Of a DNA stretch of 64,000 nt, positions 1 to 16,096 are shown in pieces. A program made the position numbers and the translations under genes. The stretch is from Deltaproteobacteria bacterium. Lineage in GTDB: Bacteria > Myxococcota_A > UBA796 > UBA2385. The first letter of the stretch is position 1. Each line of letters opens with the position of its first letter. The notes below the pieces were generated by a model that saw only the letters and a program-made list of their open reading frames with translations, was not told the DNA's origin and did no database searches. The stretch is taken from the NCBI GenBank assembly GCA_018401435.1, contig JAGYJW010000028.1, positions 1 through 64,000 on the forward strand, written 5' to 3'.

Positions 1-1
1 C

Positions 2-259
2 TCGGCCGACCGCCTGCTGGAGGCCGGCTGGCGGGCCGTCGAAGCCGGCGACCTCTCCGGCGCCCGCGCCACCTTCTCGAAGCTGCCCGGCGCCGATGGT
101 CGGGCCCGCTATGGGCTGGGCTATGTGGCCGACCAGCAGGGCAACCTGGACGCCGCCACCACCTACTATTGTGCCGCCCTCGACCTCTCGTCCACGCCAG
201 CCGACGTGGCGCGCGAGATTCGGGGACGGCTGGGCGTGCTCGGCCGGGACTGCCCCTAG
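2..259 (+). CDS. C-terminal fragment of TPR-like protein (5' end outside window)
   Basis: Open frame from base 2 to TAG at 257-259; translation ...AGDLSGARATFSKLPGADGRARYGLGYVADQQGNLDAATTYYCAALDLS resembles TPR helices. Confidence 0.6.
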   Translation, partial: SADRLLEAGWRAVEAGDLSGARATFSKLPGADGRARYGLGYVADQQGNLDAATTYYCAALDLSSTPADVAREIRGRLGVLGRDCP

Positions 260-1063
260 ATGTGGCTCACCCTGCTGATGGCCCTGCCCGCGCAGGCCAG
301 CGCGCCCACGGGCAGCCCCTTGGAGCCCTCCCCCGACGACGTCTGCGCGACGCTGTCCGCCTTCAACGCAAAGGCCAGCATGCCCATCGGCGAGATCGAC
401 CGCGAGACCTGCGCCGAGCTGGCCCGGGGGCAGACGGTCACCCTGATCCAGAAGCGCCCCGACGGGCTCTTTCGCGCCGTTGGATTGGCCCGTGCGGGCC
501 AACCCAAGGAGGGTGTCTGGCTGAGCACCCAGGACCCGCACTTTGCCGGTGAGGAGGCCATCGAGGCCAACCTCGAGCTGCGTCCGGATGGGGGCGTCTG
601 GTACGGGATGCTCGACATCCCCCGCCCCTTCGCCGATCGCCACTGGGTGTTGGAGACCTGGAATAACAAGGCATTGGCCAAGGCTTCGGGCGGCGCCATC
701 TGGGAGCACCCCTGGCGCCTTCGCAACGGCGAGACGGCGCGGGTGCGGCCGAAGGTAGAGCGGGGCGAGGTCGCGGGCCTCAGCCTGGAGGTCTTCGACG
801 AGGCGGTGGAGACCTCGGTGAACGAGGGCGCGCTGGTCTTTCTCGACCTGCCGGGCGAGGACAGCCTCTTCCTCTACCATGTGACCACGGTCATCGGCGG
901 CGGCATCCCCGACCGCCTTGTGGCGGGCTTCGTGCGCAGCACCATGTCCGGCTATATCGACGAGACGGTGAAGCGGGCGCGCCGGGTCGTGCCCGGCCAC
1001 TATCGCGCGGGTCACAGCCCCCTGGAAGGGGGGGGCGGGCAGCACCTGCCCTACTATCCCTGA
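260..1063 (+). CDS. Hypothetical exported protein (possible SRPBCC/START-like fold)
   Basis: 267 aa ORF, signal-like N-terminus MWLTLLMALPAQASA, starts directly after the preceding stop. Confidence 0.6.
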   Translation: MWLTLLMALPAQASAPTGSPLEPSPDDVCATLSAFNAKASMPIGEIDRETCAELARGQTVTLIQKRPDGLFRAVGLARAGQPKEGVWLSTQDPHFAGEEAIEANLELRPDGGVWYGMLDIPRPFADRHWVLETWNNKALAKASGGAIWEHPWRLRNGETARVRPKVERGEVAGLSLEVFDEAVETSVNEGALVFLDLPGEDSLFLYHVTTVIGGGIPDRLVAGFVRSTMSGYIDETVKRARRVVPGHYRAGHSPLEGGGGQHLPYYP

Positions 1064-1073
1064 CCCCGTCTCT

Positions 1074-3290
1074 TCAGAAACGAATGCCGGCGGACCCGCC
1101 GGGCCAGAAGCGCAGTCCGTCGGCGATGGGCTGCGCCTCTACCCAGAGGGGCCAGGGCGACGGGTCTCCCCGCACCGCGATGCCCAGGTTGAGATCGGCC
1201 CCCACAAAGGGGGTGAAGTGCTCGTTGATCTTGAAGCCCACCGACACACGAAGGCGCGGGATCAAGGTCAGCTCGGTCTGGCTGTTGAGAGCGATGGCAG
1301 ACCACAGGCCGAGATCGACATCCACCGGGACCCGGGGCGGGCCGGCGCGCACGCCCATGCCCGCGCCGGTGACCAGCAGGTGGTCGGCCGGGGTCTTTGC
1401 CGGCGCGTCGAGATCGGCGATGGCCCCCGCCGCCAACACCGTGTAGAGACGCTTCCCCCCGGTCTTGAGCCCAATCGACGCTGCGCCCGTGCTGTCGGCC
1501 CACAGCTCGCCATCGAAGATGCCGTCCCGCACGATGTTGATCAAGCCGATGGGCGCACCTTCCATGCTGCGGGCCACATTGACCAGGCCCACGGTGCTGC
1601 CTTGGATATCGCCCGAGACGTTGACCAGGCCCAGCTTGAAGGCCCGGTCGTCCTCGCCGGCAGACACGTTTACGAGGCCAATCTGGGCGCCATGGGCCTG
1701 CAGGGCGACGTTGGCGCCGGCGCTCAGCTGCAGGCCCGACAGCTCCTGGGCAAAGTTGGCCCCTGCGCTGGCTTGCAGGCCCTCGGCCCGGGCGCCGACG
1801 ATGTTGGCGCCCGCGCTCAGCTGCAGGCCCCGCAGGTGCTGCTCCACCACATTGGCCACGGCGGCCCCCTGAAGGCCGCGGAGGTCCTGGGCCCAGTTCC
1901 CGCCGGCCGATGCTTGAACTCCCTGCAGCTCCGCAAAGGCGACATTGGCCCCCACCGCACCCTGCATGCCCCGCATGTCGCCGCCGGCATGGTTCAGCCC
2001 GATGGCACCTTGCATGCCCTGGCCGCCGTCGTCGGTGAAGGTGGCGCCCAGGGCCAGGGCGGTGCCGTCCATGCGCCAGGAGCGGGTGGCCACGACGCCC
2101 ACGCCGGTCTTCAGCTCCACCCGCTCGCGATCGGACTCCAGGTTGAGGTCGGGCAGCAGGGTCGCAGCAAAGGCCACCACCCGGTCGGGCTCGCGGTGCG
2201 GGGCTGCGCCCGGCGCGGCTTCGGGGGGCACATCGCCGCGGGCCCGGGCGTCGGCCAGGGCGAAGCCGGTGAATGCGCTGCGCTCCAAGGTGGTGGAGCC
2301 CCCCGCGGGCACCGTCGCCGTCGCCCGCCAGGTGCCGCCCTCCTCGCGGGCCGTGACCGAGTATTGGCCCGGTTCCAGGCCGAGGGCCACGGGCCGCCCG
2401 GGCGCCTTGCGCAGCTCCGCCACCAGACGCCCGCTGCTATCGCGCACCATCACCAGCCCTTGGACCTCAGCGCCCAGCTGCAGACCCGCCCCGCGCTGGC
2501 GCAGATCGGTCATCACCAGATCGCCCGACCCATTGAGTTGGATGTCAAAGGCCGCATGTTGGGGACCGTAGCGGGTGCCCTCGGTGCGGGCCAGCGTCTC
2601 GTCATAGGCGAAGCGGTAGGCCTCGTTCAGGGTCACCCGCCCGTCCAGATCCGTGTCTGCGCCCCCCCGCAGGCCCGTGACCAGGGCGTGGGTGAAGAAG
2701 GATCCGCCCAGGGCGTCGGCCTCCTGGCTGATCTCGTCGGCCGAAGACGAGGTCAGGAAGGCGTGGCCCTCCACCACATTGCCCTCGTCCAACAGAAAGG
2801 CGGGCGCCGCCGCGCCGCCTTTGCCCCGCACCAGCGCCCCCGACGCGCAGGAGTCGAGGATGGCCACCCGCACATCGGCGGGCAAGGCGTCCAATGCCGA
2901 CCGCAGCTCGCGGTAGGGCATGCGCTCGCCCGCCAGCAGCAGGCCCGATGCGTCGGAGTGCCCGGAATAATAGACCACCACCTCGGTGCGGGCAGCCGGG
3001 CCGGCGGCTGCGATGCGCCGGTTGAGGTCGGCGAATGCGTCCTTCATGGCGGCGTGGTCGGGGTCCACCAGCACCACGACATCTCTGGTGTTCACCCCGC
3101 CATAGCGGGCCAACACCGCCGCCATGGACCGGGCGTCCGATCCTGCATAGACCAGGGGGACCCGGTCATTTCCACCGTCGTTGGCGCCAGCCAGCAGCGC
3201 GAAGCGCCGCACCGTGCTCTCTGCAGCATGGGCAGGCGCCGCCCCCAGGGCGGCCAGACCGAGCAGGGTCGCCGCCCACCGTGCGGTCAT
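1074..3290 (-). CDS. Exported caspase-family (C14-like) protease with C-terminal surface-type repeats and barrel-like C-terminus
   Basis: Signal peptide MTARWAATLLGLAALGAAPAHA; His motif VVVYYSGHSD and Cys motif VAILDSCASG; about 10 GLQxSAGANxA / GLVNVxxx repeats; C-terminal ...GGSAGIRF. Confidence 0.85.
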   Translation of the reverse strand: MTARWAATLLGLAALGAAPAHAAESTVRRFALLAGANDGGNDRVPLVYAGSDARSMAAVLARYGGVNTRDVVVLVDPDHAAMKDAFADLNRRIAAAGPAARTEVVVYYSGHSDASGLLLAGERMPYRELRSALDALPADVRVAILDSCASGALVRGKGGAAAPAFLLDEGNVVEGHAFLTSSSADEISQEADALGGSFFTHALVTGLRGGADTDLDGRVTLNEAYRFAYDETLARTEGTRYGPQHAAFDIQLNGSGDLVMTDLRQRGAGLQLGAEVQGLVMVRDSSGRLVAELRKAPGRPVALGLEPGQYSVTAREEGGTWRATATVPAGGSTTLERSAFTGFALADARARGDVPPEAAPGAAPHREPDRVVAFAATLLPDLNLESDRERVELKTGVGVVATRSWRMDGTALALGATFTDDGGQGMQGAIGLNHAGGDMRGMQGAVGANVAFAELQGVQASAGGNWAQDLRGLQGAAVANVVEQHLRGLQLSAGANIVGARAEGLQASAGANFAQELSGLQLSAGANVALQAHGAQIGLVNVSAGEDDRAFKLGLVNVSGDIQGSTVGLVNVARSMEGAPIGLINIVRDGIFDGELWADSTGAASIGLKTGGKRLYTVLAAGAIADLDAPAKTPADHLLVTGAGMGVRAGPPRVPVDVDLGLWSAIALNSQTELTLIPRLRVSVGFKINEHFTPFVGADLNLGIAVRGDPSPWPLWVEAQPIADGLRFWPGGSAGIRF

Positions 3291-4114
3291 CTGCGGGCCT
3301 CCTTCTTGAGCAGCAGGGTCTGCTGCTGCACGGGCTGGCTGGCGGGCAGCTTCAGGGGCAGCAAGGCGGCGCTGCGGGCGAGGCCCGTGGCAGCCAGCTT
3401 CTCGGCCGCGGCCTGCATTGCGCCGGCGTCCAGGGGCAAGGGGCTGGTGACGAAGAAGAAGCGCTCGAAGCCGGGGGCCTCATCCAGGGTCCAGGCGCGG
3501 TCCAGGTGGTGCTCGCCGCCGCCATCCAGGGCGGTGGGTCCGCCGGGCTCGCTGGGCCAATGCAAGCTGACGGCGCCCGCACCATCGATGCTCAGGATGA
3601 CGCCATGGCCCTGGTCGCCGGCGAGGTAGGCGACCTGGATGACGTCGCCCCCGGACACGGCGGCGCCGTCTTGCAGCAGCTCGATGCCGGCGGCTGCTTT
3701 GCGGTAGACCCGCAGATCGGGGCGTTGGGCCTCGGCGCTGCCCTTGGGGCGCACGCCGTCGTTCAGGGCGGGATCCTTGAGGCCGCCGATATGGTCCAGG
3801 CGGTTGGGCGGCAGGGCCACCCACATCATCACGGCCATCACGGCCATCGACATCACCCACACGCCCCAGCCGCCGCGCTTGCGCTCCTCGCGAAAGCCGG
3901 CCCGGGCCTCGATCTCGTTGGCCATGCGCCCCGCGGGGTATTGAATGCGGGTGGCGTCGTCTTCGGCGCGCAGGGCCTGCACCTGGGCGCGGAATTCGGG
4001 GTCGCTGTCCAGCAAGGCGTCCAGGGCGGCCGTGCGGGCGGGGTCCAGCTCACCCAGCAGGTAGCGCTCCAGCTCGAGGCCGACGGGGGGCGGCATCTTG
4101 GGATCGGAGGCCAT
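3287..4114 (-). CDS. Membrane anti-sigma-factor-like protein with DUF4384-like ectodomain
   Basis: N-terminal ELERYLLGELDPARTAALDALLDSDPEFRAQV, one TM (GVWVMSMAVMAVMMWVAL), between ECF sigma and caspase; 4-nt overlap with caspase start. Confidence 0.7.
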   Translation of the reverse strand: MASDPKMPPPVGLELERYLLGELDPARTAALDALLDSDPEFRAQVQALRAEDDATRIQYPAGRMANEIEARAGFREERKRGGWGVWVMSMAVMAVMMWVALPPNRLDHIGGLKDPALNDGVRPKGSAEAQRPDLRVYRKAAAGIELLQDGAAVSGGDVIQVAYLAGDQGHGVILSIDGAGAVSLHWPSEPGGPTALDGGGEHHLDRAWTLDEAPGFERFFFVTSPLPLDAGAMQAAAEKLAATGLARSAALLPLKLPASQPVQQQTLLLKKEARR

Positions 4115-4115
4115 C

Positions 4116-4625
4116 TCAGACTCCTTCCAGCTCGGCCACATGGGCCTTGAGGGTGCGCAGGCGCTTGCGCACCCCCGAAACGGACAGGCCGGTCTCGTCG
4201 GCCACCTCTTGCAAGGTCATGCCATCCAGCAGGTGCATCACCGCCATGGCCCGGGTGCTCTCGGACTCGTCTCGAAAGATGCGTTGCAGCATCAAGCGCG
4301 CCGGAGCCAGCCCGCCCTCGGGGGCGGCGGCAATGCGCTGCAGCAGCGCGTCGTCGCGGTCCTCGGGGTGGCGCTTGTTGCTGCGGATGCGGTTGAGGCA
4401 GACATGGGTGGCCATGCGGTAGAGCAAGGAGGAGAGGCCCTGGTCGGTCAGGCGCGCGGAGTAGCGGAGCAGGCGCACGAAGGTGTCCTGCATCGCGTCC
4501 ACCGCGGCCTCTTCATTTCGGAGGAGAGCCCGACAGCGGCGCAGGACCATGGGCCCATAGCGGCGGTAGGTCGCCTCGACGTCGATGGCCAAGCCATCCT
4601 CCAGGGGGTTCGAGAGGTGGAACAC
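4116..4625 (-). CDS. ECF-family RNA polymerase sigma factor
   Basis: Region 2 YRRYGPMVLRRCRALLRNEEAAVDAMQDTFVRLLRY and region 4 MTLQEVADETGLSVSGVRKRL. Confidence 0.9.
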   Translation of the reverse strand: MFHLSNPLEDGLAIDVEATYRRYGPMVLRRCRALLRNEEAAVDAMQDTFVRLLRYSARLTDQGLSSLLYRMATHVCLNRIRSNKRHPEDRDDALLQRIAAAPEGGLAPARLMLQRIFRDESESTRAMAVMHLLDGMTLQEVADETGLSVSGVRKRLRTLKAHVAELEGV

Positions 4626-4711
4626 CGGGGCCGCCCGGAGCTGTCACCCCAAGCTGCGCCAGAACTAACGCGTGCCCCGTCGGGATAGGGCGCTTGCAGC
4701 CCGGAGGCCCC

Positions 4712-5137
4712 ATGAGCACCCCGAACAAGACCCACCAGACGGAGGCCTCGGTCGAGGCATTCATCGCGGCCACCTGCACCCCGCGCCGCCAGGACGAGGC
4801 CCACCAGCTCTGTCGGCTCATGACCGAGGTCACCGGCGAGCCGCCCGCCATGTGGGGGCCCACGATGATCGGCTTTGGCCGCTACCACTACAAATACGAG
4901 AGCGGCCACGAAGGCGACGCCATGCGGGTGGGCTTCTCGCCCCGCAAGGCCAGGCTCTCCCTCTACCTGCTGCCCGGCCTGGACGGCTACGAGGCGCTGC
5001 TGGCCCGCCTGGGCAAGCACAGCACCGGGGTGGGCTGCCTCTATGTCAACAAGCTGGCCGACATCGACATGGGCGTGCTGCGCGAGCTGGTGCAGAGCGC
5101 CTGGGCCGAGATGAACCGGCGCTACCCGCAGCCCTGA
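4712..5137 (+). CDS. DUF1801-family protein
   Basis: MWGPTMIGFGRYHYKYESG...FSPRKARLSLYL... pattern typical of DUF1801. Confidence 0.75.
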   Translation: MSTPNKTHQTEASVEAFIAATCTPRRQDEAHQLCRLMTEVTGEPPAMWGPTMIGFGRYHYKYESGHEGDAMRVGFSPRKARLSLYLLPGLDGYEALLARLGKHSTGVGCLYVNKLADIDMGVLRELVQSAWAEMNRRYPQP

Positions 5138-5183
5138 GCCCGCGTCTCGGCCGCGATCTTGTAGGATGCGTTGAGGAGGCCCC

Positions 5184-5600
5184 ATGCCCTTGACCTGGAC
5201 CCGTGAGAGCCCCGCCCGTTGGGACGCCGACAAGGCGCGCATCCTGGGGGGCGCCGCCCCGGGCAGCCTGCCCGAGATGGCCATGCCCATCGGAGATCTC
5301 GCGCCGGGGGACTGGTTCCGGGTGGAGCACGACGGCCAGGTCGTGGGCTATGGCTGGATGGATGTGGTGTGGGGGGACGCCGAGATCCTGCTGGCCGTGG
5401 CGCCCGAAGCCCGCGGAAATGGCGTCGGAACCTTCATTCTCGACCAGATCGCCCTGGAGGCCCGCGCCCAGGGCCTGCGCCGCATCCACAACAGCGTGCG
5501 GCCCAACCACCCCGAACGCCAGACCACCCAGGCCTGGCTGGGGCGGCGCGGCTTCTCGGGCGGAGAGGGCCACGAGAGCCTGGAGCGGCGCCTGGCCTGA
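5184..5600 (+). CDS. GNAT-family N-acetyltransferase
   Basis: LLAVAPEARGNGVGTFILDQIALEARAQGLRRIHNSV acetyl-CoA binding motif. Confidence 0.8.
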   Translation: MPLTWTRESPARWDADKARILGGAAPGSLPEMAMPIGDLAPGDWFRVEHDGQVVGYGWMDVVWGDAEILLAVAPEARGNGVGTFILDQIALEARAQGLRRIHNSVRPNHPERQTTQAWLGRRGFSGGEGHESLERRLA

Positions 5601-5618
5601 AGGTGCGCGGGCGGCCCC

Positions 5619-7004
5619 TCAGACCGCCGTGCCCACCCGCGCCCAGTCGCCCCGGCGCCAGTGCACCAGGCCCAGGGCGGCCTTGACCAGAAAGCCCACC
5701 GGAAAGGCCACCCACACGCCAAAGATGCCCAAACCCAGCGGAAAGCCGAAGAGGTAGGACAGGGGGATCTGGACGACCAGGGTGGCCAGGATGTTGATGC
5801 GCAGGCTGGTGCGCGTGGCCCCCGACCCCTGGAACATGCCCACCAGGGCGATGTAGACGCCCGCCAGGGGCATACAGGAGCCCAAGACCCAGATCCACAT
5901 TCGGGTGTGGCTGGCCAGCACCGTGTCTGCGCCAATATCGAAGAGGCCGATGATGGGGTCGGCAAAGCCGATGATCAGGGCTGCGAGGCTGCTCATGATG
6001 GCGCAGCTGAGCACGACCCCGGCCCGCACCACGGCCTTGGCCTCGGCCGGGTTGCCCGCTCCCAGCGCGTTGCCCACCATGGCGCCTGTGGCCTGACCCA
6101 CGCTCATGCCCGGCACGAAGGCCAGGGCCTGTATGCGCAGGCCCACCCCATGGGCGGCCACGGCCACCGGATCGATGCGGCCCAACATGCCCACGATGCT
6201 GATGAAGCTGGCGTTGAGCACCACCATATCCAAGGCGGCCGGCGCGCCGATGCGCACCAGCTGGCGGGCGAGCTTGAGATCGAGCGGGGCCGGCCGCAAG
6301 GCGATGCCCACGCCAGGCACCCCGCCCCTGGCGATGGCCAGGACCAGGACCCCGGTGCTGAAGACCTGGCTGGCGACGGTGCCCAGGGCGGCACCCTGCA
6401 CCCCCATGGCCGGCAGGCCGAAATTGCCCAGGATCAAGCCATAGTTCAGGCCGAAGTTGACCAGGTTGCTGGCCAGGGCCACCAGAAAGGCGAGGCGGGT
6501 ATTGCCCGCCCCCCGCAGCGAGGCCCCATAGAGGATGGTCAGGTAGTAGAAGACCGATCCGGCCAGCAGGGGGCGCAGATAGGCCAGGGCGGCCTGCAAG
6601 GCGCCCCCTTCGGCCCCCAAGGCCCGCAGCATCAGCGGCGCGGCGAGGTTGCCAAAGCCGGCCACCAGCAGCCCCAGGATCACGGTGAGCTGCGTGCTCT
6701 GCCGCATCAGGTGCTGCACCCGGTCCGCGTCGCCCGCGCCATGGGCCCGCGACACCAGGGCCACATTGCCCACGGTCAGGCCCATCATCGCCACCATCAG
6801 CAAGAAGACCAGCTGGGTGGCAAAGCCCAGCCCCGTCAGCGCCGTTTCGGCCAGGGGGGTGCGGCCGATCATCGCCGTATCCACCGCCAGGGCGAGCACA
6901 TTGAGCACGTTGAGGCCGACCACCGGCCAGGCCAACGAGACCAGGCGCCGCGCGATCGGGGGCCCAGGGGGCGTGGAGGGTGGGGTCAACAGGGGTCCGA
7001 GCAC
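5619..7004 (-). CDS. MATE-family efflux transporter
   Basis: 461 aa multi-TM protein; SLAWPVVGLNVLNVLALAVDTAMIGR start and 12-TM-like pattern. Confidence 0.85.
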   Translation of the reverse strand: MLGPLLTPPSTPPGPPIARRLVSLAWPVVGLNVLNVLALAVDTAMIGRTPLAETALTGLGFATQLVFLLMVAMMGLTVGNVALVSRAHGAGDADRVQHLMRQSTQLTVILGLLVAGFGNLAAPLMLRALGAEGGALQAALAYLRPLLAGSVFYYLTILYGASLRGAGNTRLAFLVALASNLVNFGLNYGLILGNFGLPAMGVQGAALGTVASQVFSTGVLVLAIARGGVPGVGIALRPAPLDLKLARQLVRIGAPAALDMVVLNASFISIVGMLGRIDPVAVAAHGVGLRIQALAFVPGMSVGQATGAMVGNALGAGNPAEAKAVVRAGVVLSCAIMSSLAALIIGFADPIIGLFDIGADTVLASHTRMWIWVLGSCMPLAGVYIALVGMFQGSGATRTSLRINILATLVVQIPLSYLFGFPLGLGIFGVWVAFPVGFLVKAALGLVHWRRGDWARVGTAV

Positions 7005-7094
7005 CAGGGCGCCTGCCCCTATCGTCGGAGGGGGGCATGCACCCGTGCTTGATCCCCTGGCCCCGCGCGGCTACGAAGGGCTACCCATCTGCCC

Positions 7095-7436
7095 ATGGAG
7101 CCGGACATGTCCAAGGAAGGCGTCGATCTCGAGGAAGACTACTTCGCTCGCCAGGATCGCGAGAAGCTCGCCAAGATCAAGGCCCAGGCCGAGGCCGAAG
7201 AGGCCGCGCAGGCCGCAGCCGCCCGCAAGGCGCTGCACCACCTGCATTGCGGCAAGTGCGGCGGCAAGATGGACACGACCACCTTCAAGGGGGTCGAGAT
7301 CGAGATCTGCCCGGACTGTGGCGCGGTGCTGCTGGACGCCGGCGAGCTCGAGACCCTCGCCGGCACCGACGAAGGCAGCGCCTTCGACACGCTGGCCGAG
7401 CTCTTCCACTTCAGCAAGGGAAAGCGCAAGCGCTGA
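7095..7436 (+). CDS. TFIIB-type zinc-ribbon (zf-TFIIB) protein
   Basis: HCGKCGGKMDTTTFKGVEIEICPDCGAVLLDAGELE. Confidence 0.8.
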   Translation: MEPDMSKEGVDLEEDYFARQDREKLAKIKAQAEAEEAAQAAAARKALHHLHCGKCGGKMDTTTFKGVEIEICPDCGAVLLDAGELETLAGTDEGSAFDTLAELFHFSKGKRKR

Positions 7437-7468
7437 CCCCGAACCGCCGCCGCCTTCGGGAGCCCGCC

Positions 7469-9112
7469 ATGACCCCAACCCGAAGCCGCCCGGATCGGCC
7501 TTGGTCCAAGAAGGCCCCCCACAACGGGCCCTGGGACGTGATCGTCATCGGGTCGGGCATGGGGGGCATGACCGCTGCCGCGCTCTTGGCCAAGCTGGGC
7601 CGCAAGGTGCTGGTGCTCGAACAGCACTATGTTCCCGGCGGCTTCACCCACACCTTCCGGCGCAAGGGCTATGTCTGGGATGTAGGGGTCCACGCGGTGG
7701 GCGAGGTCACCCCCCACAGCCTGACGGGCCGGCTGCTCGACTTTCTCACCGATGGCCGCTTGAAGTGGGCCAGCCTGGGGCCGGTCTATGACGCCTTCCA
7801 TTACCCGCCGCGCCATGCCGGCGAAGATGGGGTGGACATCGACTTTCCCGACACGCCCCAGGCCTTTCGGGACAACCTGATCGCGGCCTTTCCCGGCGAG
7901 GTGCCGGCCATCGACCGCTACCTGTTGGAGGTCAAGCGCACCGCCGGCGCCATGAAGGGCTACTACCTGGCCCGGCTCTTTGGCGGCCGCATGGGGCGCC
8001 TGGCCGACCGCTTCCTGGCGCGGGAGGCCCAGCAGCAGCTGACCCGTCACACCCGCGAAGCCATCGAGTCCTTCACCGAGGATCCGCACCTGCGCGCAGT
8101 CTTCACGGCGCAATGGGGCTATTATGGCTCGGTGCCCGCCCGGTCCTCCTGGGCCATGCAGGCCCTGGTCACCAAGCACTTCTTGCACGGTGCCTACTAC
8201 CCGGTGGGGGGGTCTGGGCGCATCGCCTTCGAGCTGCTGCGCACGGTGGCCGACGCCGGGGGCTGGACCCGCATCTGTGCCGACGTGGAGCAGATCCGGG
8301 TGGAGGGCGGCAAGACGGTGGGCGTGCGCCTGGTGGGGGGCGAGGAGCTGCACGCCCCGGTGGTGCTCAGCGCCGCGGGCATCCAATCTACGGTGGCCCG
8401 CATGCTACCGCCGGCCGTGGCCGACACCGAGTGGGCGCGGGCGGCCCGAAAGGATCCCCCCGCCTCCGCCCACCTCTGCCTCTACATCGGCTTCAAGGGC
8501 GATATCCGCGCGGCCGGGGCCAGCGCGGCCAACCAGTGGTTCTACGAGGTCTGGCAGTGGGATGGCGAGACGGATGCCTGGGATGTCTCCCAGCCCGACG
8601 CCCTGGACGATGCGCCCTGCTTGTATTGCTCCTTCCCCAGTCTCAAGGATCCCGAGCACGACCCCGGCCCCGAGCAGCGCCACACCGGCGAGGTCGTGAC
8701 CTTCGTGCCCTATGACGCCTTTTCGAAGTGGGCGGGCACCCCCTGGCGCAAGCGCGGGGCCGACTACGAGGCCTTCAAACAGAAGCTCCAAGACAAGCTG
8801 TTGGAGCAGTTTCTGCGGCGCATGCCCGGGCTGGCGCCCTTCATCGACCACGTCGAGATCTCCACGCCCATCTCGACCGAGACCTTCGTACGGCCCATGC
8901 GGGGGTCGATCTATGGCATCGAGCCCACGCCCGAGCGATTCAACAACCCGTGGTTGCGGCCGAAATCGCCCCTTCCTGGCTTGTTTTTCGGCGGAAGCGA
9001 GGTCACGACCGTCGGCGTCATCGGCGCAATGATGGGCGGGGTGCTGGGGGCGGCCGCGGTGGCGCCGGTGCCGGCCCTCAAGCTGCTTCGGGGCCTGCAG
9101 CGGCCCGTCTGA
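7469..9112 (+). CDS. NAD(P)/FAD-dependent oxidoreductase (CrtI/retinol-saturase-like)
   Basis: GSGMGGMTAAALLAKLGRKVLVLEQHYVPGGFTHTFRRKGYVWDVGVH; C-terminal LFFGGSEVTTVGVIGAMMGGVLGA. Confidence 0.85.
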   Translation: MTPTRSRPDRPWSKKAPHNGPWDVIVIGSGMGGMTAAALLAKLGRKVLVLEQHYVPGGFTHTFRRKGYVWDVGVHAVGEVTPHSLTGRLLDFLTDGRLKWASLGPVYDAFHYPPRHAGEDGVDIDFPDTPQAFRDNLIAAFPGEVPAIDRYLLEVKRTAGAMKGYYLARLFGGRMGRLADRFLAREAQQQLTRHTREAIESFTEDPHLRAVFTAQWGYYGSVPARSSWAMQALVTKHFLHGAYYPVGGSGRIAFELLRTVADAGGWTRICADVEQIRVEGGKTVGVRLVGGEELHAPVVLSAAGIQSTVARMLPPAVADTEWARAARKDPPASAHLCLYIGFKGDIRAAGASAANQWFYEVWQWDGETDAWDVSQPDALDDAPCLYCSFPSLKDPEHDPGPEQRHTGEVVTFVPYDAFSKWAGTPWRKRGADYEAFKQKLQDKLLEQFLRRMPGLAPFIDHVEISTPISTETFVRPMRGSIYGIEPTPERFNNPWLRPKSPLPGLFFGGSEVTTVGVIGAMMGGVLGAAAVAPVPALKLLRGLQRPV

Positions 9113-9124
9113 CCCTCCAGCAGC

Positions 9125-10507
9125 TCAGGCCAGAAAGACCGGCGAGCGGCGCTGCGTCCACGCCATCGCCTCCTCCAGGCTGCGGCTGAGGCGCAGCAGG
9201 TCGAGGTCGGCGCCCGGCTTGCCCACCAAGTGCACGCCAAAGGGCAGCTGGTCGGGCCCGCCCAGGCCGCCGGGCAGGCTGGCGGCGGGCTGGCCCGAGG
9301 TGTTGATGGCGGCGGTGAAGGCGCCGATCTGGGCGGCGGCCAGGAAGCCCGCGCGGGGGTCGAGATCGGTGTAGGCGCCCACCTTGGGTGCGAATCCGGG
9401 GGTGGTGGGGCTCAACATGAAGTCGGCGTCGCCAAACCAGGTCAACACCCGGTCCTGGAAGCTGCGGGCCAGGTCGCTGGCCTGCTGGGCGCTGACTTGT
9501 CGCCCCCCCTCCCGCAGCCAGCGGGTGATGGGCTGCATGGCGGCCTCGCTGGGCGAGAAGGCGCGGCTGCTCAGGCGCTGGTAGATGGGAAGGAACTCGT
9601 CGATATCGCCGGATGGGGGCTCAATCTCATCGAGATGGTGCCCCATGTCGGCAAGCAGGCGGGCGACGGCGCGCACCCCCGCTGCGATGTCGGGGTGCAC
9701 CTCGGCCACATTGGAGCGCAGGCACACGCGGATCTTCAAGCCGGCGGGCAGGGGGGTCTGGCTGAGCGCCAGCAAGCTGCCGGGCTGGCCGGCCTGGGGG
9801 CGCCCACACAAGGCGTCCACCACCGCGATGCAGTCCTCGACCCGGTGGGCCACGGCCCCCATCACGGCCATCTTCATCTCGTCGAGGCGGCCGTAGAAGT
9901 CGGGCATGAGGCCACGGGAGGCCTTGTAGCCATAGAGGTGGCAGAAGGCCGCCGGGATGCGGATCGATCCCCCACCATCCGAGGCGTGGGCCACCGACAG
10001 CAGGCCGCCCATGGCCACCGCCGCCGCAGCACCGCCGCTGGACCCGCCGGCGCTGAAGGCCGGGTTCCAGGGATTCACCGTGGGCGGCTGCAGATCGGTC
10101 TCGACCACGGGCATCAGGCCCAGCTCTGACGTCGTGGTCTTGCCCACGAGGGTGGCCCCGGTGCGCCGGAGCAGCTTGACCGCCGGCGCGTCCACCGGCG
10201 ACCAGCCATAGCGATAGGCGCGGGACCCGGCCCGGGTGCCCGCAAAGGCGACCAGGTCGAGATCCTTGATGGCAAAAGGCACGCCGGCCAAGGCGCCGGG
10301 CAGGGGCTGACCGCGGGCCACCGCCGCGTCCACGCGGCGGGCGTGTCGCAGGGACCGTCGGCGAAAACGCTCGGCAAAGGCCTGGAGTTGAGGCTGGTGC
10401 TGGTCGATGCGCGCCTGCTGCCAGTCCAGCAGCTCCACCGCGGACAGGGTGCCGCTGCGGATCTGTGCGGCAAGCTCCAGGGCGCCAGCTTGTGCGATCT
10501 CGGTCAT
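9125..10507 (-). CDS. Amidase signature family protein
   Basis: PFAIKDLDLVAFAGTRAGS...LVGKTTTSELG...NPWNPAFSAGGSSGGAAAAVAMG. Confidence 0.9.
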   Translation of the reverse strand: MTEIAQAGALELAAQIRSGTLSAVELLDWQQARIDQHQPQLQAFAERFRRRSLRHARRVDAAVARGQPLPGALAGVPFAIKDLDLVAFAGTRAGSRAYRYGWSPVDAPAVKLLRRTGATLVGKTTTSELGLMPVVETDLQPPTVNPWNPAFSAGGSSGGAAAAVAMGGLLSVAHASDGGGSIRIPAAFCHLYGYKASRGLMPDFYGRLDEMKMAVMGAVAHRVEDCIAVVDALCGRPQAGQPGSLLALSQTPLPAGLKIRVCLRSNVAEVHPDIAAGVRAVARLLADMGHHLDEIEPPSGDIDEFLPIYQRLSSRAFSPSEAAMQPITRWLREGGRQVSAQQASDLARSFQDRVLTWFGDADFMLSPTTPGFAPKVGAYTDLDPRAGFLAAAQIGAFTAAINTSGQPAASLPGGLGGPDQLPFGVHLVGKPGADLDLLRLSRSLEEAMAWTQRRSPVFLA

Positions 10508-10518
10508 GGGCCTCTCTC

Positions 10519-11328
10519 TCAGGACGACGCGCTGGTGTAATGCGCCAGCGCGCTCACCCACGCCCAGCGGGACAATGCGAGCAGCCCGATGCCCACCGCG
10601 GCGGCTTGCAGCACCAGGCCGGGCTCCATGCGGCCGAGCAAGGCCATGGCCGGGAAGCTGGTGACCAGGGCCACCGGCAGGACCACCGTGAGCAGGGTGC
10701 GCAGCCAGCCGCGGTAGACGGTCACCGGCCAGCGCCCGGTGTCCATGGCGCTATGGAGCAAGAAGCGCAGGTTGTCCACCCGCACAAACCAGAATGAGGT
10801 GCAGGTGACCAGCACCCAGATGCCCACCATGGCGGCCAGCCCGCAGGCGAGCAGGGCGGCGGCCAGCAGGGCCTGGCTGAGGGTGGGCGTCGGCAGCTTC
10901 GATAGTGCATAGACGCCCAAGGCGAGGCCCGCGAAGGCATCCCAGAGCCGGGCGGGGGCCAGGCGCTGCAAGCCGGCCACCAGCTGGGAGTCGGCGGGCT
11001 TGAGCACGAGGTGGTCCAAGGCGCCGGTGCGGATGCCCTCGACGATGGCGCCCAGGTTGGGGTCGACGAAGGCGCCAATCAGCCCCTGCAAGACCAGGAA
11101 GAAGGCCGTGACCAGCAGGGCCTCGGGCAGGGTCCAGCCCGCCACGGTGCTGGCGTGGCCATAGACAAAGACCAGGGGCAGGACCAGGCCCACGCTGGTG
11201 ATGGCGCCGGTGAAGACATCCAACAGAAAAGAGGCGCGGTAGGTTGCCGCGTTCATCAGGGCCACCCGACCCAACGCGCCCAGCACCCGCAGCAGCCGGC
11301 GGAGCCCCTCAGGCACCGACAGCCCCAT
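10519..11328 (-). CDS. ABC-2 type transporter permease
   Basis: 269 aa, about 6 TM; adjacent to a second permease and an ATPase. Confidence 0.8.
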   Translation of the reverse strand: MGLSVPEGLRRLLRVLGALGRVALMNAATYRASFLLDVFTGAITSVGLVLPLVFVYGHASTVAGWTLPEALLVTAFFLVLQGLIGAFVDPNLGAIVEGIRTGALDHLVLKPADSQLVAGLQRLAPARLWDAFAGLALGVYALSKLPTPTLSQALLAAALLACGLAAMVGIWVLVTCTSFWFVRVDNLRFLLHSAMDTGRWPVTVYRGWLRTLLTVVLPVALVTSFPAMALLGRMEPGLVLQAAAVGIGLLALSRWAWVSALAHYTSASS

Positions 11329-12118
11329 AGCGACGCAGCCCCCGCTGCCACATCAGGGCCGCCAAGGCCGCCAGGGCCCCAGTCCAGCCGACCTGCACCG
11401 CGAGTCGCCCCAGCAGATCGGGCTCCAGGCCGACGAGGATCTCGACGGGGGCCGCCAGGGTGGCCTGGAAGGGCAGCCAGCGGGCGGCCGCACCCACCGC
11501 GGGGGGCAGCAGGTCCAGCGGGACGACATAGCCGCCCAGCAGCGCATAGGCGGCGAACCACAGGCCAAAGAAGCCCATGGACTGCTCAAACCAGAAGGCG
11601 AGCATTCCAAAGATGACCTGCACCACAAAGCTCAACAAGAAGGCCAACAAGACGCTGACGGCCCCCGCCAGGGCCTGGGCGGGGGTGGGCAGGGTGGCCA
11701 GCTCGGGGCGCCACAGGCACAGCGCCCCCAGAATGGGCGCCAGGACCACGATCCGAAAGGGCAGGGCGGCGGCGGTCTGGGCCAGCTCATAGACCAGCGG
11801 GTTGAGGGGGCGCAGCAGCAGGGGCGACAGGCTGCCCCGGCGCACCTGCTCGTTCAGCTCCCACACAATCCACGCGCCGGTGAGTTGGCGCACAATCAGC
11901 GTGACCGTGAAGTATCGGGCAAACTCGGCCTGCCCGAATCCCATCAGCGGGCCCTCGGCCGCGGCGGCATCCCACAGGGCCAACATCACCAGGGGCATGG
12001 TCGCAGTGAGGATCCAGACCACCATCTCGGCGCGGTAGGCCACCATGCTGGCAAAGCCCACCCGCAGCAGGGCCGGGGCGGCGCGCAGCAGGTGCAGGGG
12101 CCGGGGCGGCGGGCTCAT
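11309..12118 (-). CDS. ABC-2 type transporter permease
   Basis: 269 aa, about 6 TM; overlaps the downstream permease by 20 nt. Confidence 0.8.
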   Translation of the reverse strand: MSPPPRPLHLLRAAPALLRVGFASMVAYRAEMVVWILTATMPLVMLALWDAAAAEGPLMGFGQAEFARYFTVTLIVRQLTGAWIVWELNEQVRRGSLSPLLLRPLNPLVYELAQTAAALPFRIVVLAPILGALCLWRPELATLPTPAQALAGAVSVLLAFLLSFVVQVIFGMLAFWFEQSMGFFGLWFAAYALLGGYVVPLDLLPPAVGAAARWLPFQATLAAPVEILVGLEPDLLGRLAVQVGWTGALAALAALMWQRGLRRYGAVGA

Positions 12119-13074
12119 GCCGCACCTTCGCCGCGGAAGGTGCGGGCCATGACCTCCTCCAGTGGCAGCTCTTCGACGCCCAGCTCGGCCGCCGGCAAGC
12201 GGGCCAGCAGGCCCTGCACCAGGGCGTTGACCTCGGCTGTGGGGATGGTGGCGACCATGCGGGCGCCATCGACGGCAAAGCCCAGGGCCTGCAGCGGCGG
12301 GTGCACGCCTTTGACCGTCACCCGGCGTTCCGGAGCCATCTTGGCCGTCAGGCCCGAAAGGCTGCCGTCATAACGCAGCCGCCCCTGGTCGATCAAAATC
12401 AAGCGCGGGGTGAGGGCCGCGATGTCTTGCATATAGTGGGAGGTCAGCAGCACCGTGGCGCCAGTGCGGGCGTTGAGATCGGCGATGAAGCGACGCACCT
12501 CGCCCTGCATCTCGACGTCCAGCCCGATGGTGGGCTCGTCCAGGAAGAGCACCTCGGGCTCGTGCAGCAAGGCGGCCACCAGCTCGCACTTCATGCGCTC
12601 GCCCAGGGACAGGTTGCGCGCGGGCTTGTGGATGAGGTCGCCCAGGCGCAGCAGCTCCACCAGGTCGGCCTGGGTCTTTCGGGCGCGGGCGGGGTCCAGA
12701 TCGTAGAGGGCCGTGTTGAGCGCAAAGGTCTCCACCGGCGGCAGATCCCAGAGCAGCTGCTGCTTCTGGCCCATCACCAGGGTGATGCGGGTCAAGAAGG
12801 CGGCCTCGCGCTGCTGGGGACGGTGACCCAGCACCGACAGGGTGCCCGAGGTGGGGTGCAGCAGGCCCGACAGCATCTTCAGGCTGGTGGTCTTGCCGGC
12901 GCCGTTGGGGCCCAGAAAGCCGATTCGTTCGCCCTTCTCGATGGAAAAGCTCAGGTCGGCGACGGCCTGGACCTCCTTGTACTCGCGGTGAAAGAGCGAG
13001 CGCAGGCTGCCCCCGAGGCCCGGCTCGCGCACGGGCACCCGGTAGGTCTTGCTGAGGCCCTCGACCCGGATCAC
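12115..13074 (-). CDS. ABC transporter ATP-binding protein
   Basis: Walker A GPNGAGKTTSLKMLSG, signature LSLGERMKCELVAAL, Walker B VLFLDEPTIGLD. Confidence 0.95.
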   Translation of the reverse strand: MIRVEGLSKTYRVPVREPGLGGSLRSLFHREYKEVQAVADLSFSIEKGERIGFLGPNGAGKTTSLKMLSGLLHPTSGTLSVLGHRPQQREAAFLTRITLVMGQKQQLLWDLPPVETFALNTALYDLDPARARKTQADLVELLRLGDLIHKPARNLSLGERMKCELVAALLHEPEVLFLDEPTIGLDVEMQGEVRRFIADLNARTGATVLLTSHYMQDIAALTPRLILIDQGRLRYDGSLSGLTAKMAPERRVTVKGVHPPLQALGFAVDGARMVATIPTAEVNALVQGLLARLPAAELGVEELPLEEVMARTFRGEGAA

Positions 13075-13084
13075 GGCCGGCGGC

Positions 13085-14929
13085 TCAGGCGCGGTCGAGG
13101 AAGGTCGGGCTGCGGGTCTGGATGGTGCGCAGCAGGCGGTCCTTGAACTCGGCCACGGTCATGGTCTCCTGATCGCGCGAGCCATAGCGCCGCAAGGTGA
13201 CGGTGCCGTCCTCGACCTCTTTTTCGCCGATCACCAGCACATTGGGGATCTTCTCGGTGACGGCGTTGCGGATCTTCTTGTTGATCCGGTCACCCGAGCG
13301 GTCGAGCTCGGTGCGGACCAGGTGGTTGAAGCGCAGGTCTTCGAGCACCGTATCTGCATAGTCATCGAAGCGGTCGGCCACCGTCAGCGCGCGCACCTGC
13401 ACCGGAGCCAGCCAGGTGGGGAAGGCCCCGCCAAAGTGCTCGATCAGGAAGGCGATGAAGCGCTCGTGGGTGCCCAGGGGAGCGCGGTGGATGACATAGG
13501 GGTGGTGTTCGGCGTTGTCGGCGCCGGTATAGGTCAGGTCCAGCCGCGGGGGGATGGCAAAATCCAGCTGGTTGGTGCTGGCCGTCTCTTCGCGGCCGGT
13601 CACGGTGCGGAACTGCACATCGATCTTGGGGCCGTAGAAGGCGGCCTCGCCCTTGACCTCCTTGAAGGGCAGGCCGCTCTCGATCATGGCCTCTCGCACC
13701 ATGTCTTGGGTCCGGGCCCAAGCCTCGGGGTCGTTGACATACTTCTCTTGGCCCTTGGGATCCTCGGGGTCCCAGGTGGAGAAGCGCATGTAATAGTCGG
13801 TCAGGCCGAGAATCTCGTAGAGTTCGCGGTGCAGATCCATGACCGAGAGGAACTCGGACTTGACCTGTTCCAAGGTGCAGTAGATGTGGGCATCGTTCAT
13901 GCACATGCCGCGCACCCGCAGCAGACCCGACAGGGCGCCGCTGTCTTCAAAGCGGTAGCACTGGCCATATTCGGCCAGGCGCAGGGGCAGCTCGCGGTAG
14001 GAGCGCTTGCGGGCACCGAAGATCTTGTGGTGGTGCGGGCAATTCATCGGCTTCAGCGCGTAGATCTCCTTGATCTCCTCCACCGTGCCCGACTCGGTCT
14101 CGCGCTGCTCCTTCAGCTCCATCAGCGGGTACATATGCTTCTGGTAATAGGGCAGGTGGCCGGTCTTGTAGTAGAGCGACGCCTTGCTGAGGTGGGGCGT
14201 CGCAACGCGCTGGTAGCCGCGCTTGAACTCCATCTCCTTGGCCAGCTTCTCCAGCTCGTCGCGCAGCACGGTGCCATGGGGCATCCACAGGGGCAGGCCC
14301 TTGCCGATCTCCTCGTCGATGACAAAGAGATCGAGGTCCTTGCCCAGCTTCTTGTGGTCGCGCTCCTGGGCTTCCTTCCAGGCGGTGACGTGGGCCTCCA
14401 GCTCTTCCTTGGTCTCGAAGGCCCAGGCGTAGAGACGGGTCATCATCGCGTTGTCGCTGTTGCCGCGCCAATAGGCGCCCGCCGTGGCGCGGATCTTGAA
14501 GCCGGCCTTCTGCAGGTCGCGGGTGCTGGCCACATGGGGGCCCTCGCACATGTCCAGGAAGGGGCCGTTCTTGTAGAAGGTCAGCTCGGAGATGCCCTTC
14601 TTGTCGAAGAGCTCCTGGGCATACTCGCGCTTGTAGGGCTCCCCCATCTCGTCGATGCGGGCCATCGCCGCGTCATAGGGCAGGGCGTCCTGTTCGAAGG
14701 GCTGGTTCTTCTTGATGATCTTCCGCATCTTGGCTTCGATCTCGGCAAAGTCGCCATCCGAGATGGGGCTGCTCAAGATGAAGTCGTAGTAGAAGCCATC
14801 GGCGATGGGCGGACCAAAGCCCAGGGTGCTGCCCGGCCGAAGCTCGAGAACAGCCTGCGCCAGCACATGGGCGAGGCTGTGGCGGATGCGGTAGAGCGCG
14901 TCGTTGTGCGAGTCGCCGGCGGTGTCCAT
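13085..14929 (-). CDS. thrS: Threonyl-tRNA synthetase (no TGS domain)
   Basis: RHSLAHVLAQAV editing motif, MNCPHHHKIF, RVRGMCMNDAHIYC, HRAPLGTHERFIAFLIEHFGGAFPTWLAPVQV. Confidence 0.95.
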   Translation of the reverse strand: MDTAGDSHNDALYRIRHSLAHVLAQAVLELRPGSTLGFGPPIADGFYYDFILSSPISDGDFAEIEAKMRKIIKKNQPFEQDALPYDAAMARIDEMGEPYKREYAQELFDKKGISELTFYKNGPFLDMCEGPHVASTRDLQKAGFKIRATAGAYWRGNSDNAMMTRLYAWAFETKEELEAHVTAWKEAQERDHKKLGKDLDLFVIDEEIGKGLPLWMPHGTVLRDELEKLAKEMEFKRGYQRVATPHLSKASLYYKTGHLPYYQKHMYPLMELKEQRETESGTVEEIKEIYALKPMNCPHHHKIFGARKRSYRELPLRLAEYGQCYRFEDSGALSGLLRVRGMCMNDAHIYCTLEQVKSEFLSVMDLHRELYEILGLTDYYMRFSTWDPEDPKGQEKYVNDPEAWARTQDMVREAMIESGLPFKEVKGEAAFYGPKIDVQFRTVTGREETASTNQLDFAIPPRLDLTYTGADNAEHHPYVIHRAPLGTHERFIAFLIEHFGGAFPTWLAPVQVRALTVADRFDDYADTVLEDLRFNHLVRTELDRSGDRINKKIRNAVTEKIPNVLVIGEKEVEDGTVTLRRYGSRDQETMTVAEFKDRLLRTIQTRSPTFLDRA

Positions 14930-14998
14930 GGGGCTCTCCGAAGGGGTCGAAGGGCGCCCCTATCCGGGCGAGCCGAGCGGGGCACCGCCCCAGGCCGG

Positions 14999-16096
14999 TC
15001 AGGGCTTGGGCGCGGGCTCGGAAGGCGGCGGCGCCGCAAGGGTCTTGCCGCGGGGCGCCTTGGCGGCGGGCAGGCCGGCCTCGGCCACGGCGGGCACATG
15101 GCCCACGCCGGGCTGGTCGTGCCAGGAGTAGCGTTCACCGGACTCCACCAGGGGGCGGACCTCGGCGCTGCCGGGCATGACCGGGCGGGTCACGGCCTCG
15201 GTGCGGGTCTCGGTCGTGCGCACAATGCCGTTCTGGAGCTTGCTTTCCACATTGTACCAGCCCGAGGGCAGGTCGCGGATCAGGCCCACCGTCAGCGGCC
15301 CCATGCGGCCGATCTCCATGCCGTTGATGGTGATGTCCGCATAGGACGTGGTCTCGTTGCGAATGGGGAGATCGCCGCGCTCAGGCAGCTTCTGTTGGGC
15401 GTCGCGCTCGGCGCGCAAGCGGCGGCGCACGGCGGCGGCGTCTTCGAGGGCGGCCTGCTGGGCGGTGGCCTCGGGGTCGGCGGAGGCGACCCGCTCCTCC
15501 ACCATGAATTCGACCCGGCGGTTGGCGGTGCGGGCGTCGTCATCGGTGCCGGGCTCCAGGGGCTCGGTCTCGCCCTTGCCCACGGCCACCAGGCGTTCGG
15601 CGGCGACGCCGCGCTGCACCAGGGCGGCCACGACGGCCTCGGCCCGCTGGCCCGACAGGCTGAGGTTGAAGGCGTCGTCGCCCACATCGTCGGTGTGGCC
15701 CTCCACCCGCACGCGGCTCACGCCGGGGTGGGAATTCAGGGCCTGGGTGAGGGCGTCGAGCAGCTCGCTGCTTTCGGCCTTGACCACCGCAGAGCCGGTC
15801 TCGAACTGGATCTTGTCCGAGATGACGAAGCGGTCGGCGGCGACAGCCACCCGCACCACGGGCTTGGGCCTTTCAAAGATCCGGTCGGGCTTGAGCTGGT
15901 CCTTGAGCCCGTAGGGGTCCACATAGACCTTGCGGAAGTTGGCCACCGGGCCTTCGGAGAGGCCGGGGTTCACCGGGTAGGTGGTCGGGTGCTGGGGCAG
16001 CGTCGGATCCCAGGCGGCAGCGTCGCGGGGGGCGGCCACCCAGAGGGCGGCCAGCGAGGTGGCGAGCAGCAGGGTTGGGCGGGTCTGAGCGGTCAT
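14999..16096 (-). CDS. OmpA-family protein
   Basis: Signal peptide; IQFETGSAVVKAESSELLDALTQALNSHPGVSRVRVEGHTDDVGDDAFNLSLSGQRAEAV. Confidence 0.9.
   Translation of the reverse strand: MTAQTRPTLLLATSLAALWVAAPRDAAAWDPTLPQHPTTYPVNPGLSEGPVANFRKVYVDPYGLKDQLKPDRIFERPKPVVRVAVAADRFVISDKIQFETGSAVVKAESSELLDALTQALNSHPGVSRVRVEGHTDDVGDDAFNLSLSGQRAEAVVAALVQRGVAAERLVAVGKGETEPLEPGTDDDARTANRRVEFMVEERVASADPEATAQQAALEDAAAVRRRLRAERDAQQKLPERGDLPIRNETTSYADITINGMEIGRMGPLTVGLIRDLPSGWYNVESKLQNGIVRTTETRTEAVTRPVMPGSAEVRPLVESGERYSWHDQPGVGHVPAVAEAGLPAAKAPRGKTLAAPPPSEPAPKP

Follow-up and report, generated by a model that had tools for sequence, protein, structure and literature searches.

The RseA-DegS-RseP pathway of sigma-E and the type III-E CASP system are the closest described counterparts of the locus reported here, an operon in a 64,000-nucleotide stretch of DNA (the window; positions 1 to 64,000 of contig JAGYJW010000028.1, assembly GCA_018401435.1) from a Deltaproteobacteria bacterium (lineage Myxococcota_A; UBA796; UBA2385). 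Three consecutive minus-strand genes of the window encode an extracytoplasmic function (ECF) sigma factor, a single-pass anti-sigma factor, and a predicted exported caspase. Caspases are proteases known chiefly for their part in the death of animal cells; to our knowledge, the functions and substrates of bacterial caspases are largely unknown. We propose that the operon probably represents an envelope-signalling circuit that regulates itself, with the caspase acting as the site-1 protease of the anti-sigma factor; by analogy, this circuit would work like RseA/DegS and type III-E CASP while being a member of neither.

As in the RseA-DegS-RseP pathway, an ECF sigma factor is combined with a one-transmembrane (TM) anti-sigma factor predicted to be cut near the membrane on the periplasmic side, and an envelope regulon and autoregulation are predicted here as well; unlike in that pathway, the site-1 enzyme would be an operon-encoded, exported cysteine protease of caspase fold instead of the serine protease DegS, the predicted P1 residue is basic, and PDZ-type sensing is not in the circuit. 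Type III-E CASP comprises Csx29 (TPR-CHAT), Csx30, and CASP-sigma, and cleavage of the inhibitor has been proposed to relieve inhibition (PMC10028731). The operon resembles it in placing a caspase-fold protease, a sigma inhibitor, and an ECF sigma factor in a single locus; however, CASP is RNA-activated via Cas7-11 with a CHAT protease, whereas the protease here is a predicted exported C14 enzyme (not TPR-CHAT), the inhibitor is predicted to be membrane-bound, and Cas genes or an array were not found nearby. Judged on Cas7-11, TPR-CHAT, and an array, the locus is not a type III-E CASP system: there was no convincing PADLOC match to Cas genes among 7 genes tested near the operon and no CRISPR-like array in window positions 1-16000, and a CRISPR or defence setting was rejected on these grounds. 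The 48-nt direct repeats at 1706-1889 are not a CRISPR array; they encode the 16-residue repeats in the C-terminal domain of the caspase. A preliminary description of this DNA had presented the operon as a non-CRISPR analogue of type III-E CASP, a comparison that appears apt as a likeness of logic only. ECF54 sigma factors, which have neighbour genes encoding CHAT, subtilase, and carboxypeptidase proteins and for which proteolytic control has been proposed, have no anti-sigma factor (PMC8999054); the present locus shares with them a conserved caspase-fold protein near an ECF sigma factor and differs in that the anti-sigma factor is the caspase's regular neighbour. The orthocaspase MaOC1 is reported to cleave an antitoxin (PMC7935541), and both loci encode a prokaryotic caspase homologue beside a regulatory substrate (a predicted one here), the partner being a toxin-antitoxin module there and a transmembrane anti-sigma factor here. 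A full-text literature search returned no description of the triad, which may be mentioned in the main ECF classification paper.

The gene order and common strand given in the preliminary description were found as stated, as was the overlap of the last two genes, in which the anti-sigma stop and the caspase start share 4 nt (ATGA, 3290-3287). The features of the operon are:

4621-4648, minus strand: ECF-type promoter GGTGACA-N14-CGGTGTT, a perfect copy; near-consensus copies lie ahead of 41 of 94 homologous sigma genes
4116-4592, minus strand: ECF sigma factor with revised TTG start at 4592 (Sigma70_r2, 7e-13; relatives' starts at the same TTG/GTG)
3287-4114, minus strand: single-pass anti-sigma factor, 275 aa (N-terminal profile match to ChrR, RslA, and DdvA; AlphaFold2 (AF2) predicted local distance difference test (pLDDT) 87)
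3818-3874, minus strand: predicted anti-sigma TM helix (about aa 81-99) with a basic stretch N-terminal to the helix (hydrophobicity scan; AF2 helix 61-100)
3740-3745, minus strand: Lys124-Gly125 (GVRPK↓GS), candidate cleavage site in the linker that joins TM helix and ectodomain (conservation in homologues)
3302-3718, minus strand: predicted periplasmic beta-sandwich ectodomain, DUF4384-like (AF2 strands, aa 133-271; PF14326)
1074-3290, minus strand: predicted exported caspase-domain protease, 738 aa (Peptidase_C14, 1.7e-10; Foldseek matches to metacaspase 7qp1 and caspase-7)
3222-3290, minus strand: signal-peptide-like N-terminus of the caspase (aa 1-23, ..APAHA/AE; by eye and hydropathy, no dedicated predictor)
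2958-2960, minus strand: catalytic His111 (YYSGH), invariant in 36 aligned caspases
2847-2849, minus strand: catalytic Cys148 (DSC), invariant in the same 36
2817-2822, minus strand: candidate auto-cleavage site Lys157-Gly158 (VRGK↓GG) at Cys+9, both residues invariant in the same 36
1077-2120, minus strand: C-terminal all-beta domain of 16-residue LA_2272/VC2662-like repeats ending ...GIRF (aa 391-738; AF2 strands, high confidence)

Conservation of the three-gene set was assessed from both ends. Caspase relatives were gathered with an alignment search (475 relatives), a single-sequence caspase scan of the genome contigs having given no match. Caspase homologues were present in 54 of the 63 genomes of the order, and of 60 loci selected for their similarity to the caspase, 54 had the full triad; five of the six incomplete loci end at contig edges, and the other (L076) has no recognised anti-sigma factor in the fetched stretch. 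A sigma gene and a gene of the caspase family were present in every one of the 40 loci outside the order picked with the anti-sigma profile alone, and the caspase Cys motif could be read in 38. Eighty named relatives, including Myxococcus, Corallococcus, Archangium, Anaeromyxobacter, Spirochaetales, and Fibrobacter, comprised 57 with all three genes, 15 with anti-sigma factor and caspase, and 8 with the caspase only (some at contig ends). The genes stay together despite changes of order or strand that put the caspase upstream of sigma or in divergent orientation (L081, L102, L103, L245, L257, L271, L423), and in Myxococcus, where no sigma gene adjoins them, the anti-sigma and caspase genes remain a pair behind the same promoter, which they follow directly in Myxococcus xanthus AM003. 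The conserved gene order on which the preliminary description had staked its proposal is therefore present in relatives within and outside the order; the triad is not a chance arrangement, and its distribution over Myxococcota, Spirochaetales, and Fibrobacter indicates that the set is ancient. Lone caspases were also seen. The window's own genome encodes a caspase-domain protein (L207, contig C35:70500-79500) with YYAGHG and with sigma and anti-sigma genes not nearby, which is probably a pseudo-caspase since the DxC motif is missing (LDAGFG). In Myxococcus, two caspases without adjacent sigma or anti-sigma genes (L404, L409) lie at a distance of several kb from a copy of the promoter, and in L404 a TonB-receptor-like gene occupies the intervening stretch; this arrangement is a possible surface-signal operon.

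By sequence and model, the protease belongs to the C14 family and is orthocaspase/metacaspase-like. Foldseek retrieved yeast metacaspase 7qp1 as the best match to the caspase model, followed by caspase-7 and legumain, and metacaspases 4, 1, and 9 were the only significant solved relatives of the caspase profile. Both motifs named in the preliminary description (YYSGHSD and DSCASG) supply the catalytic residues, and the modelled structure has the His-Cys dyad in a caspase fold. The signal peptide claimed there can be upheld as a signal-peptide-like N-terminus, judged as listed above; a hydrophobic N-terminus precedes the caspase domain in nearly all homologues. Residues D52, S109, and D146 are also invariant in the 36 caspases, whose profile was aligned with metacaspases. 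In TbMCA2, Asp95, Ser156, and Asp211 belong to the proposed S1 pocket and have been linked to substrate binding and to activity (PMC4357240), and its two Asp residues accommodate basic residues (PMC6426788). The S1 equivalence is our own assignment, with D146 at Cys minus 2 and D52 aligned with the metacaspase ND(A/V) motif; on this alignment, an acidic S1 pocket for a basic P1, i.e., Lys/Arg specificity, is predicted for the window caspase. An RxK↓G motif was found nine residues past the catalytic Cys in 61 of 61 first-set caspases, and a low-confidence loop of the model (157-170) begins exactly at K157-G158. Because metazoan effector caspases are auto-cleaved nearby, at about Cys+12, K157-G158 looks like an activation site. 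The C-terminal part of the protein matched NCBIfam VC2662_fam (2e-5 over aa 455-592, under its cut-off), and caspase C-termini have outer-membrane-like ends (GIRF, WPGFFAGVRF); this domain might anchor the protease in the outer membrane and serve as the sensor.

The N-terminus of the anti-sigma family profile matches the solved anti-sigma domains of ChrR, RslA, and DdvA; zinc ligands are kept by some family members and are absent from the anti-sigma factor of the operon. Foldseek gave no significant match to the anti-sigma model, which presents helices and a TM segment. The protein is a candidate class I anti-sigma factor, a class with a sigma-binding N-terminal domain followed by one TM; binding of the sigma factor is predicted. 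The long trans-membrane helix of the model runs to residue 100 and is followed by a lowest-confidence linker (107-123, with pLDDT <50 at residues 107-114 and 116-123) and a beta ectodomain that begins at residue 133, which agrees with the one TM segment and long ectodomain noticed earlier; PF14326 matched weakly in 10 of 40 family members. In 40 diverse anti-sigma factors with a mean column identity of 28%, Gly125 was the sole invariant column, and Lys124 was conserved in at least 90%. With motif positions taken from alignment and an anchored search, Lys/Arg-Gly was found in the linker of 124 of 129 nonredundant caspase-linked anti-sigma factors (121 automatic calls at the expected place and three by eye, L255, L350, and L054), as compared to any K/R-G in 31% of shuffled linkers. 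The remaining five have K-N, K-S, K-A, R-T, and R-T; a basic residue is therefore kept in 129 of 129, and the next residue is always small. The motif lies at a near-constant distance from the ectodomain, namely 26-29 aa for 102 of 121 anti-sigma factors, but anywhere from about 6 to 87 residues from the membrane; the notion of a freely varying spacing on both sides was abandoned.

A common K/R-G-type peptide is found in the caspase loop and in the anti-sigma linker; in L078 and L087, the two are identical in every letter (TRLKG). A divergent second triad clade has Arg-Gly in both proteins, as do L253 and L372 of the main clade; the caspase/anti-sigma pair counts were K/K 93, K/R 15, R/R 10, and R/K 2. 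K/R-G is missing from five anti-sigma factors that have a related ectodomain and no caspase gene nearby (L177, L188, L346, L352, L371), a small and phylogenetically clustered control from which L180 was left out (contig end). The earlier suggestion that the caspase cuts the anti-sigma factor thus gains a linker motif that fits both the predicted specificity and the caspase's own loop, the cleavage itself being inferred. The window's own genome carries a second, divergent triad (L186, contig C150:25500-35500), in which the catalytic motif is DTCHNG and both sites are Arg-Gly; its caspase was missed by a Pfam C14 scan of that genome.

The first gene of the operon encodes, by sequence, an ECF sigma factor with regions 2 and 4 only and its own promoter class; besides Sigma70_r2, Pfam r4_2 scored 25.4 bits (just under the cut-off of 25.7), and NCBIfam sigma70-ECF matched above its cut-off. 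The preliminary description had the gene start at GTG 4625, a position that should be revised: because it falls within the -10 element of the conserved promoter (4648-4621) and relatives start at a matching TTG or GTG, the start was moved to 4592, the likely start being this TTG, which is preceded by GGAGG. The promoter spacing was 14 in all 41 sigma-gene upstream regions with a near-consensus copy, and the best dyad occurred in 31 upstream sequences vs. 6 in shuffles. Four perfect promoter copies (0 mismatches) were found in the window's own genome, as compared to a chance expectation of about 0.04 per genome (our estimate from a base composition of about 70% GC). One is that of the operon; the other three precede genes for a small exported protein, a repeat protein of the caspase-C-terminus type, and a GIN-domain lipoprotein (DUF2807, 3.7e-36). 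In the 63 genomes, a degenerate promoter pattern gave 119 sites vs. 38 for the reversed control (our own sums). With up to two mismatches allowed in the window's own genome, the pattern was not enriched over its reversed control (14 vs. 32 sites); only near-perfect copies are informative. Close behind 15 of 20 fetched non-operon sites, there is an open reading frame (ORF) in which a signal peptide or lipobox was recognised by eye; lipoproteins of the FG-GAP and Asp-rich types and a further repeat protein are among these ORFs. The predicted regulon thus appears to consist mostly of envelope lipoproteins and homologues of the caspase C-terminal repeats.

In the proposed circuit, the ECF sigma factor would at rest be held at the inner membrane by the cytoplasmic N-terminus of the anti-sigma factor. 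The caspase would be exported as a zymogen, mature by a cut in its own loop at R-x-K↓G (Cys+9), and then cut the anti-sigma linker at VRPK124↓G125 between the membrane and the ectodomain; the membrane stub would be finished, RseA-like, by a site-2 protease and cytoplasmic proteases. The freed sigma factor would transcribe its own operon and a small set of envelope genes, with positive feedback via the protease and negative feedback via new anti-sigma factor. Members of the site-2 protease family are present in the window's own genome (Peptidase_M50, best 5.5e-61), a finding of little weight since they were found in all 14 control genomes too. Several observations count against this proposal. 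Fifteen pairs combine Lys in the caspase with Arg in the anti-sigma factor, and the Arg/Arg pairing is only suggestive of covariation, since few independent events are involved. One caspase loop has Glu instead of Lys (L264). K/R-G is kept in three anti-sigma factors without a linked caspase (L173, L174, L175), which leaves room for a structural role or a protease acting in trans, and the caspase-less control is weak because most of its motif-free anti-sigma factors belong to a single subfamily. Anchoring in the outer membrane might also keep the caspase from the inner membrane or facing outward.

Part of this evidence would also suit a caspase that is an output of the sigma factor, i.e., an induced envelope or secreted protease merely co-regulated with an anti-sigma factor that another signal and protease control. 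The caspase sits under the sigma factor's own promoter, extra caspases without sigma or anti-sigma genes have a promoter copy within the fetched locus in some Myxococcus-type genomes (L404, L405, L409, L412), and the remaining genes of the predicted regulon are envelope outputs; however, the match of the linker motif to the caspase's predicted specificity and loop motif, and a linkage that persists with a divergent caspase or an absent sigma gene, make simple co-regulation unlikely. The nearly fixed distance from Lys/Arg-Gly to the ectodomain, with a variable distance to the membrane, and the retention of the motif in L173, L174, and L175 would be expected if the caspase acted on another target and the motif served either in the structure or folding of the first ectodomain strand or as the target of a general, trypsin-like protease of the periplasm. 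We consider this improbable, as the motif lies at the end of the low-confidence linker of the model, related ectodomains in caspase-less loci lack it (L177, L188, L346, L352), and substitutions retain the basic residue while replacing Gly with other small residues.

A caspase exposed at the cell surface through its C-terminal domain and used against other cells or for matrix remodelling would recall the autotransporter-like order of an N-terminal enzyme and an all-beta C-terminus ending in an aromatic residue, and many Myxococcota are predators; this role seems very improbable, as it would leave the conserved anti-sigma pairing and the shared motif unexplained and the C-terminal domain can be read as a barrel or a solenoid in either orientation. 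We give least credence to a caspase that binds the linker without cutting and, RseB-like, protects or modulates the anti-sigma factor; the tight gene pairing by itself would fit, but the dyad His and Cys and the S1 residues are invariant, as under selection for catalysis.

The preferred reading, with the caspase as site-1 protease, may be extended, with a rather small chance of being right, to a protease that is also the sensor: the caspase would be released to reach the anti-sigma factor and cut it at K124↓G125 upon failed outer-membrane assembly or occupancy of its C-terminal domain. This extension is suggested by the joining of the caspase to outer-membrane-like repeats whose caspase-less homologues are predicted regulon members and, if true, would represent a one-protein sensor-protease switch in Myxococcota, Spirochaetales, and Fibrobacter. 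The site-1 circuit itself names a specific substrate, bond (K124-G125), self-processing site (K157-G158), promoter, and short list of target genes, all predicted, and Myxococcus xanthus, a tractable relative, has the anti-sigma/caspase pair. If true, the circuit would be a case of a caspase controlling genes across a membrane with neither CRISPR nor cell death involved, and this caspase would represent a new class of site-1 protease for anti-sigma signalling.

The operon is flanked by a small divergent gene upstream and a convergent gene without a Pfam match downstream, and an Rfam scan found no RNA family. In one caspase-less locus mentioned above (L173, contig G024:C116), the sigma gene and the gene for a Lys-Gly anti-sigma factor are followed by a Ser/Thr kinase-like gene in the caspase's place. 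An Asp-rich small lipoprotein gene (..GCIIYD..) adjoins the triad in 11 loci (L075, L077, L080, L085, L086, L089, L097, L106, L108, L109, L113), and similar lipoproteins follow promoter copies in L332, L333, and L340; this lipoprotein is a candidate accessory component. A different lipoprotein (..CGDISN..) is encoded after the caspase in L083, L092, L105, and L107, which represent one family of the order.

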